Source: an uncultured Eudoraea sp. | GTDB taxonomy: Bacteria > Bacteroidota > Bacteroidia > Flavobacteriales > Flavobacteriaceae | DNA: 64,000 nucleotides | Assembly: GCF_947258525.1 (NCBI RefSeq) | Contig: NZ_CAMYIP010000079.1 | Location: 19,447 to 83,446 of the forward strand | Direction: 5' to 3' | In this document: positions 45,007-50,908 of the stretch, piece by piece | Layout: every line of letters begins with the position of its first letter | Numbering within the stretch: the first letter of the stretch is position 1 | Notes under the pieces: generated by a model | The model's input: the letters and a program-made list of their open reading frames with translations, nothing else | What the model was told of the DNA's origin: nothing | Database searches by the model: none | Program-made: the position numbers and the translations under genes

Positions 45007-46071
45007 ATGGCTGGTAATACATTTGGAAGACTTTTTAAACTTACTACTTTTGGAGAATCCCATGGGAAGGCAATTGGTGGTGTTATAGACGGATGTCCGT
45101 CCGGAATAAAGTTGAATTTGGAAGCAATACAGCAAGAGCTGGATAGGAGAAAGCCCGGCCAATCTGCTATAGTTACACAACGTAAGGAGCCGGATACTGT
45201 TGTTTTTTATTCCGGAATATTTGAAGGGCAGACCACTGGAACCCCAATTGGATTTGCGATTTATAATACAAATCAGAAATCAAAAGATTACTCGCATATA
45301 AAAGATTCATATCGCCCGTCTCATGCAGATTATGTATATGATAAAAAGTATGGTTTTAGGGACTATAGGGGAGGGGGCAGAAGTTCTGCTCGTGAAACAG
45401 CCAGTCGTGTAGTTGCGGGAGCTATCGCTAAACAATTTTTAAATGGCATTAGTATAAATGCCTACGTTTCCCAGGTTGGTTCCCTTAAACTTGAAAAACC
45501 CTATTCGGAACTGGATTTGAAATTAACCGAAAGTAATGCTGTGCGTTGTCCGGATCCTGACACCGCCACCAGAATGGAATCTTATATTAAAGAAGTTCGA
45601 AAGGAAGGTGATACAATTGGTGGAATCATTAGCTGTGTGATCAAAAATGTTCCCGTTGGACTTGGAGAACCTGTTTTTGATAAGCTTCATGCTGATCTTG
45701 GTAAAGCCATGTTATCTATTAATGCGGTCAAAGGATTTGAATATGGCAGCGGTTTTGAAGGAGTCAAAATGAAAGGTAGTGTTCATAATGATCAATTCAA
45801 ACCGGATGGGAGTACAATTACCAATAACAGCGGTGGTATACAAGGTGGCATTAGCAATGGTATGGATATCTATTTTAATGTAGCCTTTAAACCGGTTGCG
45901 ACAGTCATTCAGGCTTATGAAACTATCGATAAAGATGGCAATATGGTTAAAACTCAGGGCAAGGGTAGGCATGATCCGTGTGTCGTGCCAAGAGCTGTGC
46001 CCATTGTAGAAGCAATGGCGGCATTAGTACTTGCCGACTTTACTTTGCTAAATAGAACCATAAAATTATAA
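45007..46071 (+). CDS. aroC: Chorismate synthase
   Basis: Last enzyme of the shikimate pathway, converting 5-enolpyruvylshikimate 3-phosphate to chorismate with reduced FMN. The 354 residues begin [33 protein letters not shown] (GESHG motif at 17-21) and contain the family signatures [24 protein letters not shown] and [21 protein letters not shown]. It is complete. It precedes the symporter gene by 59 bp; because the gap contains only a weak hairpin, aroC may be cotranscribed with the symporter, but aroC is a housekeeping gene and the link may be incidental. Confidence 0.98.
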
Positions 46072-46130: not shown

Positions 46131-47456
46131 ATGAAGAAACTGGAATTGCATTGGCAAATCCTAATAGGGATGATCCTTGGCCTTCTTTTTGGCTTCGCTA
46201 TGACCTATATTGAATGGGGTCGTGGTTTTGTGCAGGATTGGATTAACCCTTTTGGAACTATTTTTGTTAAACTTCTCAAGTTAATTGCAATTCCACTTAT
46301 TCTTGCTTCTTTAATTAAAGGAATATCTGATTTAAAGGACATTTCAAAGTTCAGAAATATTGGACTTCGGACAATAGCTATTTATGTATGTACCACAATA
46401 ATTGCCATTACTATTGGTCTGGTTTTAGTTAATGTTTTGAAGCCAGGCGAAGGCATTTCAGATGAAACAATTACAAAATTAACGGATACCTATGCGACAG
46501 ATAGCGGTGTAACCTCAAAGATTGAAGAAGCTTCAAGGCAAAAGGAAGTTGGTCCATTGCAGTTTATGGAAGACATGGTTCCTGATAATGCATTTGGCGC
46601 TCTAAGTGATAACAGCTTAATGCTTCAGGTCATCTTTTTCACAATATTCCTTGGTATAGCAATGCTGTTAATCGGAGAAAAAAGAGCTAAACCACTAAAA
46701 AAGTTTTTTGATTCACTCAATGATGTTGTACTCAAAATGGTAGATCTTATAATGCTCACCGCTCCGGTGGCAGTTTTTGCATTGTTAGCAAATGTTGTTG
46801 TCTCCTCTGGTGACCCGGATCTGTTACTGGCACTATTGAAATATGCCGGGGTAGTGGTTTTGGGACTATTTTTAATGATTGTATTTTATGCTGTGGTTGT
46901 TGCCACTTATACACAGAAAAATCCTTTCTGGTTTCTTAAGGAGATAAGTCCGGCTCAATTATTGGCATTTTCCACAAGTTCGAGCGCGGCAACTCTTCCG
47001 GTTACGATGGAAAGGGTAGAGGAGCATATAGGGGTAGATAAAGAGGTATCTAGTTTTGTACTCCCAGTAGGCGCTACCATTAATATGGATGGTACAAGCT
47101 TATATCAGGGTGTTGCGGCTGTTTTTATCGCCCAGGCTCTTGATTTTAATCTCTCTCTTGGCGGACAGCTGACTATTGTGCTTACCGCGTTACTGGCATC
47201 TATTGGCTCGGCAGCAGTCCCTGGAGCCGGTATGGTAATGCTGGTCATTGTTTTGGAATCTATAGGTTTTCCATCTGATAAACTGGCTATTGGACTGGCA
47301 CTAATTTTTGCAGTAGACCGTCCATTAGATATGTGCAGAACTATTATTAATGTTACCGGAGACGCTACCGTTTCAATGATTGTTGCCAAGTCTGTCGGGA
47401 AATTAGGTAAACCCCGCATAGAAGACTGGGATAAGTTTTATGAAGAAGTAAAATAA
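46131..47456 (+). CDS. Dicarboxylate/amino acid:cation symporter (DAACS family)
   Basis: Sodium- or proton-coupled importer of glutamate, aspartate or C4-dicarboxylates (GltP/DctA family), with about eight helices and two re-entrant loops. Landmarks: serine-rich loop AFSTSSSAATLPVTMERVEE (about 281-300), NMDGTSLYQGVAAVFIAQ (TM7 cation site), and DRPLDMCRTIINVTGDATVSMIVAK (TM8 substrate site with the conserved Asp, Arg and Asn). At 441 residues it is complete. The next gene starts 16 bp after its stop, so the symporter is likely the first gene of the ATP-grasp/NFGA/QEGLA operon. An acidic amino-acid substrate fits those neighbours. Confidence 0.93.
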   Translation: MKKLELHWQILIGMILGLLFGFAMTYIEWGRGFVQDWINPFGTIFVKLLKLIAIPLILASLIKGISDLKDISKFRNIGLRTIAIYVCTTIIAITIGLVLVNVLKPGEGISDETITKLTDTYATDSGVTSKIEEASRQKEVGPLQFMEDMVPDNAFGALSDNSLMLQVIFFTIFLGIAMLLIGEKRAKPLKKFFDSLNDVVLKMVDLIMLTAPVAVFALLANVVVSSGDPDLLLALLKYAGVVVLGLFLMIVFYAVVVATYTQKNPFWFLKEISPAQLLAFSTSSSAATLPVTMERVEEHIGVDKEVSSFVLPVGATINMDGTSLYQGVAAVFIAQALDFNLSLGGQLTIVLTALLASIGSAAVPGAGMVMLVIVLESIGFPSDKLAIGLALIFAVDRPLDMCRTIINVTGDATVSMIVAKSVGKLGKPRIEDWDKFYEEVK

Positions 47457-47472
47457 ACTAAAATTAAGTCCA

Positions 47473-48504
47473 ATGAACATTTGTTTTCTTATGTATCCTT
47501 GGGAGGAGATTGATCCTGAGAATGATACAAGCCTTGCATTAATTCATGAATGCGTTAAACGCAACCACGGAGTAGCCTTGTGCACGCCTGCTAATCTTAC
47601 TATTCGCAATAGTGTTACAAATGCCTTTTGCACCGTTATTGGCAGAATGGATAAAGTACCCGGCAGTCTTAAGTCTTTTTATAGAAAGGCTGAAATTAGG
47701 GAGGAAATGCTGCCGCTGGCCGGCTTTGATGTTATCTTCATGAGAGCCAATCCACCACTTGACCCTATTATGTTGAATTTTTTGGATTCTGTAAAGGACG
47801 ATGTGTTCATAGTTAATTCACTGCAGGGTTTGAGGGAGGCGAATAACAAGTTGTACACTGCGGCTTTTGGTGATAGTCATGACAATATAATACCTACTAC
47901 CCATGTTTCTAAGAATAAAAACTATCTGGTAAAGCAGATTAAAGAATCCAAAGCCGATAAAATGATCTTAAAGCCATTGAATGGCTTTGGAGGTTCGGGT
48001 GTTATCCTAATTGAGAAATCGGCAATGTCAAATATAAAGTCGCTATTGGATTTTTATATTTCAAGTTCCGATGGATCATCTAATTATGTCATTCTTCAGG
48101 AATATATTGAAGGAGCAGAGCAAGGTGATGTTAGAATTCTGATTTTAAACGGAGAACCAATTGGTGCAATGAGGCGTATACCGGGTTCTGATGATCATCG
48201 CTCCAATGTTTCTGCAGGAGGTTCTGTTGCAAAGCATACGCTTACAAAACAGGAAAAAGCATTATGCAAGCAAATTGGGCCCAAACTGGTTAAGGACGGG
48301 CTGTATTTTGTAGGAATCGATGTTATCGGCGGTAAATTAGTGGAGGTAAATGTTATGTCACCGGGCGGGATAACCTATATGAATAAGGTTTATAAAACCA
48401 AAATTCAGTCCAAAATAATAGACTTTATTGAGAGCAAGGTAGTTGACAAATTGCAAGCTTTTAACAGGCGTTCCAGATTGCGAAACGAGGTTGAGAATGC
48501 TTAA
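47473..48504 (+). CDS. Glutathione-synthetase-like ATP-grasp ligase
   Basis: ATP-grasp enzyme forming an amide between a carboxylate and an amine. The 343 residues follow the GshB pattern: an N-terminal Rossmann-like part (MNICFLMYPWEEIDPENDTS; FDVIFMRANPPLDPIML), then ILKPLNGFGGSGVILIEK (ATP loop, about 163-180), ILQEYIEGAEQGDVRILILNGEPIGAMRRIPG, and GIDVIGGKLVEVNVMSPGGITYMN (metal site). No gamma-glutamylcysteine synthetase gene is nearby. The product in this organism need not be glutathione. It overlaps the next gene by 8 bp and is transcribed with a symporter, an amidohydrolase and a QEGLA metallopeptidase. Confidence 0.88.
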   Translation: MNICFLMYPWEEIDPENDTSLALIHECVKRNHGVALCTPANLTIRNSVTNAFCTVIGRMDKVPGSLKSFYRKAEIREEMLPLAGFDVIFMRANPPLDPIMLNFLDSVKDDVFIVNSLQGLREANNKLYTAAFGDSHDNIIPTTHVSKNKNYLVKQIKESKADKMILKPLNGFGGSGVILIEKSAMSNIKSLLDFYISSSDGSSNYVILQEYIEGAEQGDVRILILNGEPIGAMRRIPGSDDHRSNVSAGGSVAKHTLTKQEKALCKQIGPKLVKDGLYFVGIDVIGGKLVEVNVMSPGGITYMNKVYKTKIQSKIIDFIESKVVDKLQAFNRRSRLRNEVENA

Positions 48505-49324
48505 ACTTTCGGTTGCCGATATTATCTCAAAAATTAAATCTGAGATTCCGTTTGAGGCAGTTTCAGATGATTATTCCTTTATTTTAAAAATAAGTGATTA
48601 CGCCCCTTATATATGTGCAGCGGTGCACGATGGGCATCAATTTAGAAAATCACTCTGGGATAATTGCCTTCATACCGAGTACGATCGATGGTATGAAGAA
48701 GATCCATGTACAAGCGAAATGGTTGCTTCTCACCCCATAGTCTTAACCGGCTGTGACAGCAGGTTTGAATATGATCTTAATAGGCCTCCTGATGGAGCCA
48801 TTTATTCAGATGCCTGGGGTAAGCCCTTGTGGAAAATACCAATATCTGCTCAGGAATACGATCACAGCATGCAAAAACATGCTTCATTTTATAGTGTTGT
48901 TCACGCTCTTGTTGAACAAATTGAAGCGAAATATGGAAAGGCCATTGTTTTTGATATGCACAGTTATAACTGGAAGCGCTGGGACCGGATTGTGCCTACG
49001 TGGAACCTTGGTACCAGTAATATAGATAACAATCGGTTCGGCGAAATAGTCACCGACTGGCAAGAAAAGCTGGAGACTATTAAATTACCGAATAATATAA
49101 AATCCAATTGTAAAATTAACGACACCTTTCAGGGAAATGGATTTTTTCTGAAATATATTACAACAACTTTTGGCAACACACTTGTTTTAGCAACTGAAAT
49201 TGCAAAGGTCTATTGCGATGAGCTCACTGCTATTATTTATCCCGAGGTAGTACGTGCTGTGGAATTGCAATTAAAAGAATTAGTACCTTTGCAGGCTAAA
49301 GAATTTCACGAGAAAGATTTATGA
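48497..49324 (+). CDS. N-formylglutamate amidohydrolase-like protein
   Basis: Zinc-dependent hydrolase fold related to N-formylglutamate deformylase (HutG-type). The 275 residues show PYICAAVHDGHQF (about 34-46), the metal-binding VFDMHSYNWKRW (about 139-150) and the C-terminal DELTAIIYPEVVRAVELQLKELV. The start is the ATG at 48497 inside the ligase stop (ATGCTTAA), an 8-bp overlap, rather than the track's TTG at 48443. Its last bases overlap the QEGLA gene by 4 bp (ATGA). Because the ligase, hydrolase and metallopeptidase are so tightly coupled, it may act on the ligase product or a related N-acyl amino acid rather than formylglutamate. Confidence 0.85.
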   Translation: MLKLSVADIISKIKSEIPFEAVSDDYSFILKISDYAPYICAAVHDGHQFRKSLWDNCLHTEYDRWYEEDPCTSEMVASHPIVLTGCDSRFEYDLNRPPDGAIYSDAWGKPLWKIPISAQEYDHSMQKHASFYSVVHALVEQIEAKYGKAIVFDMHSYNWKRWDRIVPTWNLGTSNIDNNRFGEIVTDWQEKLETIKLPNNIKSNCKINDTFQGNGFFLKYITTTFGNTLVLATEIAKVYCDELTAIIYPEVVRAVELQLKELVPLQAKEFHEKDL

Positions 49325-50493
49325 TTACCGAAGATCAGCGCCTGTCTATTAAATTAGAGTATCCCAATTTATTTGAAGTAGATGACAACCTGGATAGACT
49401 CATAAAGAATATTGAGTTGCTGAGCTATGTAAATCCGCTTAATGGTGAAAAAGAAAAACATAAGTTTTTTGCTTCCAAATTTGTAGAAAACCCCAAATTC
49501 AAATATCCAAAATTAAAGTTCGATCCTTATAAGCTTCATCGCTTGTTTTATTCACAAAGATTAGAGCGAATAAAAGATGCGGAATTAAAGGATTTATATA
49601 CAGATATTATTTATTATTATGCCAATATGGTGCAATGCATCAAAACTATTGGCAAGGGGAAAGAGTTTTATTACAATTCTTTGAATATATATGGAACCCC
49701 AACTGAAAAGGATGTTCAAAATGCAAAATTTATACTTCATTTTGATGATGAGCCTGCAAGTGTTGATATGGAAACCGTATTTTCCACGGATGATGCCAGG
49801 GCCTATTTTGAAGATTTTGCCGCATCATATGAATTTCCGGTAAATATTAAATTTGCGACCCACATAGCAGCTGACGCTATGGTAAGCAATGCAACCAAAA
49901 CATTACTTATAAAACGCAATGCAAGGTTTAGCCAAAACCAACTGCTCACATTGGCAAATCATGAAATTGGAGTACACCTGGTAACTACTTTTAATGCTTC
50001 TCTTCAACCTTTAAAAATATTTTCCAACGGTTTTCCAAAAAATGTAGAAACTCAGGAAGGATTGGCAGTTTTTAGCGAATACATGAGCGGAGCACTTACA
50101 ATTAAAAGACTTAAAGAGCTAGCATATAGAGTTATAGCAGCAGATAGTTTAATTAAAGGTTATAGTTTCGCAGACACCTTCGATCTGATACACAACCAAT
50201 ACAAATTGAACCGAAATGACGCATTTTCAATTACTCTTAGGGCACATAGAGGCGGAGGTTTTACCAAGGATCGACTATATCTTAGTGGATTGAAAAAAAT
50301 CTACAAACGTTATAGGAATGGCGAGTCTATGGATGTATTACTCACCGGAAAAGTAGCGATGAACAACGCTGATCAAATAAAATATTTACAAAATTTAGGT
50401 TTAGCTAAGCCCATAAGCCATAATAATCTGGCATATTCGACAAATAGGAGCTCAAATCCCACACTCGAATTTATTTTAAATAATTTGAAATAG
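49321..50493 (+). CDS. QEGLA-motif (DUF1704) metallocarboxypeptidase-like protein
   Basis: Member of the family known as flavohemoglobin expression-modulating QEGLA motif protein (TIGR02421), related to the vertebrate MATCAP tubulin carboxypeptidases. The 390 residues include HEIGVH at 214-219 (an HExxxH zinc motif) and the second metal-ligand-bearing QEGLA at 245-249, then AYRVIAADSLIKGYSFADTFDLI. The zinc ligands expected for activity are all present. It is the last gene of the operon and its ATG overlaps the preceding TGA (4 bp). A TACCTTTG internal -7 box at 49284-49291 could give extra expression. The physiological substrate in bacteria is unknown. Confidence 0.88.
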   Translation: MITEDQRLSIKLEYPNLFEVDDNLDRLIKNIELLSYVNPLNGEKEKHKFFASKFVENPKFKYPKLKFDPYKLHRLFYSQRLERIKDAELKDLYTDIIYYYANMVQCIKTIGKGKEFYYNSLNIYGTPTEKDVQNAKFILHFDDEPASVDMETVFSTDDARAYFEDFAASYEFPVNIKFATHIAADAMVSNATKTLLIKRNARFSQNQLLTLANHEIGVHLVTTFNASLQPLKIFSNGFPKNVETQEGLAVFSEYMSGALTIKRLKELAYRVIAADSLIKGYSFADTFDLIHNQYKLNRNDAFSITLRAHRGGGFTKDRLYLSGLKKIYKRYRNGESMDVLLTGKVAMNNADQIKYLQNLGLAKPISHNNLAYSTNRSSNPTLEFILNNLK

Positions 50494-50494
50494 A

Positions 50495-50908
50495 CTAATC
50501 CAGAAATTTTGCCTTTAGTTCCGGGGTAGGGATCATGCAGTCATTTTGTTTACCAAACCAACTGTACCTGTTTTTGGCTATCAGGTCATAGATCCAATCT
50601 CTAATAGGTCTTGGAACCCATTCAAAAATACTTAACAGACGCCAGCCACCACCAAAAGACTTACCAATCTCCAAAGCCGCAGATGATTTAATGTAATAGG
50701 CAGTATTAGGGTCAATTAGAATGATTGAATCTATTTGTGATGAATCTATACCCCTTTGACTCAGAAGCATTTTGGCCGTATCACTTTGCAGGGCTGCAAA
50801 CTTGTAACGATTTTTTTTATCGTGCTTAATGACAAACTGAATGGAACTATTGCAAAGGTTACAAACGCCATCAAACAAAATAATTTTTTTATCGTCTCTT
50901 GGTATCAC
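50495..50908 (-). CDS. DCC family thiol-disulfide oxidoreductase-like protein
   Basis: Small protein of the DUF393/YuxK group. The N-terminus has the defining FDGVCNLCNSSIQFVIKHDKK (DxxCxxC, about 11-31), followed by YKFAALQSDTAKMLL and the C-terminal WVPRPIRDWIYDLIAKNRYSWFGKQND. At 137 residues it is complete. The redox role is inferred from the two cysteines; no biochemical activity is established for most members. The start is GTG (50908), with no better in-frame ATG. It converges on the QEGLA gene with only 1 bp between stops. Confidence 0.9.
   Translation of the reverse strand: MIPRDDKKIILFDGVCNLCNSSIQFVIKHDKKNRYKFAALQSDTAKMLLSQRGIDSSQIDSIILIDPNTAYYIKSSAALEIGKSFGGGWRLLSIFEWVPRPIRDWIYDLIAKNRYSWFGKQNDCMIPTPELKAKFLD

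Follow-up and report, generated by a model that had tools for sequence, protein, structure and literature searches.

Several described systems bear on the locus analysed here. ATP-grasp ligases which operate together with a peptidase that releases the product are known from the LysW/LysX and RimK systems, and RimK and LysX, both ATP-grasp relatives, act on protein ends. Neighbourhoods of ATP-grasp amidoligases and peptidases were reportedly described by Iyer and colleagues in their 2009 work on amidoligases, which may mention the gene set treated below. Further points of comparison are the glutathione synthetase GshB of Escherichia coli (PDB 1gsa), the N-formylglutamate amidohydrolases (2q7s; Atu2144, 2odf) and the peptidase MATCAP/TMCP1 (KIAA0895L; PDB 7z5g). 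A function of MATCAP, the trimming of tubulin tails, has been assigned only in animals (PMC10499314); a functional description of bacterial members was not found in the searchable literature. We have analysed a stretch of 64,000 nucleotides from an uncultured Eudoraea sp. of the Flavobacteriaceae (contig NZ_CAMYIP010000079.1, positions 19,447 to 83,446), henceforth the window. It carries, side by side, genes for a GshB-like ATP-grasp amide ligase (GSHB), an N-formylglutamate amidohydrolase-like protein (FGase) and a MATCAP-family protein (QEGLA), preceded by a gene for a transporter of the sodium:dicarboxylate symporter family (SDF).

Each of the cassette proteins belongs to a known family; it is for the pairing that no description was found in the searchable literature. 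Like the amidoligase neighbourhoods, the cassette couples an amide ligase to peptidases; unlike LysW/LysX it contains no carrier gene, and its ligase is of the GshB type. We tentatively propose that GSHB-FGase-QEGLA is a cytoplasmic ligate-and-trim module which makes and remodels a small peptide-like metabolite and is not a standard glutathione pathway; among the readings considered we judge this the best, and regard it as a serious possibility, short of probable.

The three-gene cassette and its neighbour SDF

The conserved unit consists of the three genes GSHB-FGase-QEGLA, without SDF. Two samples were used, 297 Bacteroidota genomes, among which the neighbours of QEGLA were inspected in 16 besides the window genome, and the 80 GTDB loci closest to the window QEGLA (the nearest loci). 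PF08014, the QEGLA family, is present in 17 of the 297 genomes. A GSHB homologue adjoins QEGLA in the window and in 15 of the 16 other PF08014 genomes. Ligases of the subfamily PRK12458, called at a score of at least 396 bits, occur in 16 of the 297 genomes, all of them QEGLA-positive and with both genes adjacent (Fisher p 1.5e-25). FGase stands beside QEGLA or is fused to it in 13 of these 16 ligase-bearing genomes. An apparent ligase without QEGLA in Galbibacter was rejected because a separate QEGLA of type B (see below) adjoins that ligase.

The gene order is likewise preserved among the nearest loci, where ligase, FGase and QEGLA are kept together in 67 of 80. GSHB is found in 67 and FGase in 68 of them. 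Across the 68 loci where both GSHB and FGase are detectable, FGase is always at most 150 bp away from QEGLA; in 53 of them the distance between GSHB and FGase is 100 bp or less. Outside Bacteroidota the cassette is present in Rhizobiaceae and Vibrionaceae. Purifying selection and this conservation across phyla indicate an operon beyond chance. Of note, viral contigs yielded one partial match, and an unverified record filed as Pseudomonas phage Y1 (L057, OQ572403.1) contains a MATCAP-family gene which may be host DNA.

In the window SDF and GSHB are separated by 16 bp, GSHB and FGase overlap by 8 bp, and FGase and QEGLA by 4 bp, which leaves no room inside the cassette for the gene of a small carrier peptide. 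Open reading frames, Pfam and NCBIfam bear out the first-pass annotation, made from the sequence alone, in its description of four real plus-strand genes not more than 16 bp apart or overlapping, including coordinates and motifs. Its assembly of all four into one operon stands for the ligase and the two hydrolases, a real and conserved association, and falls for SDF as a cassette member. SDF has long stood beside aroC and is a bystander to the cassette; judging from the 16-bp gap it is probably co-transcribed with it in the window. The aroC-SDF pair occurs in several Flavobacteriaceae without QEGLA, and aroC is present at 62 of the 80 nearest loci. An empty site in one genome (G182) reads FAD/FeS gene, LpxH-like gene, aroC, SDF, DCC1, mutS2, ung, i.e., the order of the window minus exactly the three cassette genes, with DCC1 directly after SDF. 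The DCC1-like gene is held in place at 48 of the 80 nearest loci as well as at this empty site. Of the 68 loci with GSHB and FGase, only 39 have SDF at a distance of up to 200 bp from GSHB. The Aquimarina cassette occupies another genomic position and is without SDF, and no SDF stands beside the cassettes of Rhizobiaceae, Photobacterium and all sets solely of type B. SDF itself scores under the models of GltP (263 vs. a cut-off of 638) and DctA (239 vs. 513) and is assigned to the SDF family only. Cassettes free of SDF and aroC-SDF pairs free of the cassette therefore leave no specific evidence for the import of an acidic amino acid, the role which had been ascribed to SDF at first.

Members of the cassette have surfaced in the searchable literature only in two papers. 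In Photobacterium damselae at low salt (1% NaCl) the genes for GshB (RS17020) and QEGLA (RS17025), consecutive tags on chromosome II, are up 38.4-fold and 27.5-fold, respectively (PMC10308900). In Vibrio vulnificus the pair VV2_1203-VV2_1204 figures among the genes specific to clade 2 (PMC3091676). Both papers name the genes in tables and do not interpret the pair. No description of a ligase-QEGLA pairing was found in the searchable open-access literature, nor was anything on the cassette in the Sinorhizobium meliloti literature when searched by gshB2 and guessed SMb locus tags. This agrees with the initial view that no such pathway is established.

The ligase and the two hydrolases

GSHB consists of the domains GSH-S_N and GSH-S_ATP (PF02951, PF02955). 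It scores 473 bits with PRK12458 (NF009110; cut-off 408), and RimK/LysX-type profiles match it weakly. With E. coli GshB it has in common the two-domain plan, the ATP and Mg residues, the lid loop and the arginines R210, R225 and R233; according to the alignment these catalytic residues are kept, and the equivalents of R225 and R233 reside in the lid loop. The lid and catalytic arginines do not fix the substrate of GSHB because several are also kept in RimK. It differs from E. coli GshB in that the identity is only about 30%, that it belongs to a separate clade, that the window genome has no prokaryotic-type GshA, and that a MATCAP-family peptidase is an obligatory neighbour. In a tree the ligases of types A and B and canonical GshB constitute three clades, the canonical one with a support of 100/100.

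FGase matches PF05013 with 53 bits (cut-off 29). As a PDB sequence search gave no match, a fold search was used instead. The AlphaFold2 model (pLDDT 92) resembles best the N-formylglutamate amidohydrolase 2q7s (E 7e-12), followed by M14 carboxypeptidases. Fold (TM-score 0.70) and PF05013 are thus shared with the known amidohydrolases. Unlike these, FGase is only about 15% identical, is located outside a histidine-degradation operon and is fused to or paired with QEGLA: no hut (histidine-utilisation) genes accompany it, and its neighbours are the ligase, QEGLA and the flanking aroC, SDF, DCC1 and mutS2.

QEGLA scores 353 bits with PF08014 (cut-off 27). With TIGR02421 it reaches 313 bits and stays under the cut-off of 339, which a Photobacterium fusion protein passes with 460. 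Its AlphaFold2 model (pLDDT 91) matches human MATCAP 7z5g (Foldseek E 3e-9) and then M32 carboxypeptidases. The alignment with 7z5g is long, with a large rmsd and a TM-score of 0.5-0.6; hence the orientation of the domains differs. The sequence profiles of QEGLA and MATCAP agree as well (E 1.5e-17). Common to both are the fold, a metal site of HExxxH plus Glu and a KD-YL-G region near the C-terminus. Unlike MATCAP, QEGLA is bacterial, has no microtubule-binding context, shows about 20% identity and is linked to a ligase and FGase. H214, E215, H219 and the QEGLA motif, which includes E246, are invariant across 22 homologues, and the initially claimed intactness of the zinc ligands is thereby upheld. 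By analogy, E246 would be the third metal ligand. Family and fold predict a carboxypeptidase-like enzyme. Elsewhere, a lone MATCAP-family gene (L018:6931-8205, genome G186) adjoins an operon for RND efflux without ligase or FGase; it is 26% identical to the window QEGLA and matches the Pfam model best.

Cassette types, fusions and reduced loci

Two types of the cassette are distinguished. Type A, that of the window, is GSHB-FGase-QEGLA with a QEGLA of 390 aa. In type B, FGase is combined with a longer QEGLA (about 610 aa, including an N-terminal extension of 235 aa) and then a second ligase which is only about 30% identical to that of type A; this type is also found on plasmids of Rhizobiaceae, including pSymB of S. 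meliloti. The extension was considered as a new domain for want of a Pfam or PDB match; this was rejected because alignment shows it to be a degenerate FGase (hhalign 96.8%, E 2e-10). FGase is fused to QEGLA in one Bacteroidota genome (G045), in Photobacterium and in Vibrio. Fusion in several lineages indicates that FGase and QEGLA act together. A fusion on a plasmid of Vibrio sp. HDW18 (L052:6164-8155) has no adjacent ligase; its FGase part has lost H155 and H47, and the QEGLA metal site is kept. In two loci (L023, L024) ligases of types A and B are encoded in one gene run together with a single FGase and a single long QEGLA, and both ligases may act in succession.

Reduced loci exist as well. 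QEGLA comes immediately after SDF in 11 of the 80 nearest loci, among them those of Arenibacter, Maribacter, two Muricauda/Flagellimonas and Galbibacter, and these genomes gave no match to a type A ligase or FGase. One of them, Galbibacter marinus, has an additional type B QEGLA-ligase pair. The metal residues are kept in these ligase-less copies. They are under strong purifying selection with dN/dS values of 0.02-0.06 among Arenibacter, which are rough because several pairs approach saturation at synonymous sites. Therefore, the substrate of QEGLA cannot solely be the product of the type A ligase.

Enlarged loci are those 11 of 68 type A cassettes in which ligase and FGase are 0.8-1.7 kb apart. 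In the five of them that were read, the gap is occupied by a gene of the rhodanese family whose nearest match is 3-mercaptopyruvate sulfurtransferase (216 bits in one relative, under the cut-off of 250). In the phylum sample a sulfurtransferase-like gene is also situated between ligase and FGase in two genomes (G088, G103). Its presence may point to a thiol; alternatively, it may have been inserted by chance and passed down within a single lineage. Between sulfurtransferase and FGase three loci have an additional open reading frame of about 110 aa; in another locus, L127, it is fused to the sulfurtransferase. This frame has no Pfam match and looks TerB-like by eye only.

Table 1. Features of the window and of related loci (L-numbers denote relatives)
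Feature	Position	Strand	Basis
SDF, sodium:dicarboxylate symporter-family transporter	46131-47456	+	PF00375, 424 bits
GSHB, GshB-like ATP-grasp amide ligase (PRK12458, type A)	47473-48504	+	PF02951 + PF02955; NF009110
GSHB, GshB-type lid loop, residues 235-251, RIPGSDDHRSNVSAGGS	48175-48225	+	alignment to E. coli GshB
FGase, N-formylglutamate amidohydrolase-like metallo-amidohydrolase	48497-49324	+	PF05013, 53 bits
FGase, H44-D-G-H47, putative metal site	48626-48637	+	alignment; H44 invariant
FGase, D153-M-H155-S, putative metal site	48953-48964	+	alignment; D153 invariant, H155 nearly
QEGLA/MATCAP-family gluzincin, carboxypeptidase-like (predicted)	49321-50493	+	PF08014, 353 bits
QEGLA, HEIGVH (HExxxH), metal-binding/catalytic motif by family, residues 214-219	49960-49977	+	aligns with HEIGTH of human MATCAP
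QEGLA, QEGLA motif, residues 245-249	50053-50067	+	aligns with EEGLA of MATCAP
aroC (chorismate synthase), upstream boundary, outside cassette	45007-46071	+	ORF; adjoins SDF in cassette-free relatives
DCC1-like thiol-disulfide oxidoreductase, convergent, downstream boundary, outside cassette	50495-50908	-	PF04134
3-mercaptopyruvate sulfurtransferase-like rhodanese genes	L026:4770-5606, L023:9319-10137, L077:5343-6167, L116:4906-5754, L123:5008-5805, L127:4912-6075		
About 110-aa ORF between sulfurtransferase and FGase	L026:5612-5938, L116:5812-6147, L123:5812-6147		

Possible roles of the cassette

The proposal of a ligate-and-trim module is supported by the adjacency of ligase and QEGLA, the fusions of FGase, the joint loss of ligase and FGase, the co-induction in Photobacterium, the missing GshA and the folds of both hydrolases. 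Judged from sequence, the product would most likely be a small γ-glutamyl- or N-acyl-type peptide; an action on protein tails is less likely. GSHB would activate the carboxylate of a small glutamyl-type acceptor, either gamma-Glu-X or an N-acyl amino acid or dipeptide, and join an amino acid to it. A small, enclosed acceptor is suggested because the GshB-type lid loop and the N-terminal GSH-S_N domain are kept. The MATCAP-fold zincin QEGLA could then take the C-terminal residue off the same or a related small peptide, and the M14-like FGase could take off the acyl (or gamma-acyl) end, the two hydrolases possibly sharing one substrate, as the fusion suggests.

Several observations weigh against this proposal. 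GSHB passes the glutathione synthase equivalog PRK05246 (287 vs. a cut-off of 272). For preferring a small molecule over a protein substrate, the lid and the domain plan, both GshB-like, are the sole grounds. Type B sets without an adjoining FGase occur in three genomes (L030, L032, L033), and 11 of the 80 nearest loci have QEGLA without FGase and without a ligase of the window type.

The best surviving alternative, albeit an unlikely one, is metabolism of glutathione or of a homologous gamma-Glu-Cys-X thiol, in which a divergent GshB would use an unrecognised source of gamma-Glu-Cys while FGase and QEGLA degrade or recycle the thiol. The GshB-like domain plan and residues, the PRK05246 score just over its cut-off and the sulfurtransferase gene that some relatives have between ligase and FGase, which would fit a thiol or persulfide, all accord with it. 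Against it, GSHB stays below TIGR01380 (241 vs. 299) and belongs to a clade apart from canonical GshB, and the window genome, 100% complete by estimate, contains no GshA of PF04262 or PF04107. A true GshB with a GshA elsewhere, the combination with which the first-pass annotation had contrasted its pathway, was rejected on the result of this genome search. A search with PF03074 yielded no match either; for want of a positive control, this result is given no weight. The search for GshA does have its positive control: two Bacteroidota (G194, G076) carry a canonical GshB, 50-52% identical to that of E. coli, and in the same stretch a GCS2-type GshA, which is of PF04107 in both, with PF04262 absent. 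As a side observation, in two Bacteroidota of one genus (L175, L176) a gene of the DNase II family is located between canonical gshB and GCS2-type gshA, a true glutathione operon of a kind rare in this phylum. Rhizobiaceae and Vibrio make glutathione with canonical genes, and the cassette is nevertheless present there. Thus, the separate clade and the missing GshA, as opposed to the GshA beside true GshB, make standard glutathione synthesis by the window cassette unlikely as far as sequences can tell.

Improbable, to a greater degree, is a cycle at the C-terminus of a protein or peptide, in which an amino acid put onto a tail by the ligase would be taken off again by QEGLA, comparable to tubulin tyrosination or the logic of LysW. 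QEGLA matches the fold of the MATCAP tubulin carboxypeptidase with all metal residues present, the ligase always adjoins QEGLA, and protein ends are the targets of its relatives RimK and LysX. However, the ligase is GshB-like, with the N-terminal domain and lid of GshB, and not RimK- or TTL-like; no small carrier gene fits inside the cassette; QEGLA persists without a window-type ligase in the eleven reduced loci; and FGase is left without a role. The add-and-remove cycle envisaged from the outset is weakened rather than refuted: the ligase indeed never occurs without MATCAP, but MATCAP does occur without this ligase and FGase. An extended version, in which FGase edits the acyl end and ligase and peptidase form a bacterial counterpart or possible ancestor of tubulin tyrosination, appears more doubtful still.

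We consider it similarly improbable that FGase and QEGLA mainly serve in salvage or housekeeping, degrading damaged or N-formylated peptides, with the ligase disposing of or storing the freed amino acids. Two metallohydrolases with family specificities for N-acyl-amino acids and C-termini, and a QEGLA which can stand alone under a dN/dS of 0.02-0.06, would fit; neither the ligase that is never without QEGLA nor the joint absence of FGase and ligase is explained in this way. Finally, a pathway in which SDF brings in aspartate, glutamate or a dicarboxylate for conjugation by the ligase and release by the hydrolases is very improbable. Its support is positional: SDF precedes the ligase by 16 bp in the window, is no more than 200 bp away from it in 39 of 68 cassettes and stands directly upstream of QEGLA in the eleven ligase- and FGase-free loci. 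This is confronted with aroC-SDF pairs without the cassette, the exact empty site in G182 and the SDF-less cassettes of Aquimarina, rhizobia, Photobacterium and type B-only sets; on the empty site and such cassettes SDF was rejected as a pathway component.

For the proposed ligate-and-trim module existing labels are of little help. PRK12458 names the ligase 'glutathione synthetase' and TIGR02421 the peptidase 'flavohemoglobin expression-modulating QEGLA motif protein'; both omit the pairing, and the functions implied by these names found no support in this analysis. The label 'glutathione synthetase' is probably wrong where QEGLA adjoins and GshA is missing, and should therefore not be taken as evidence that an organism contains glutathione. 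In different phyla MATCAP is tightly linked with an amidohydrolase and with a ligase of its own, and this opens a direct route to the function of MATCAP in bacteria.

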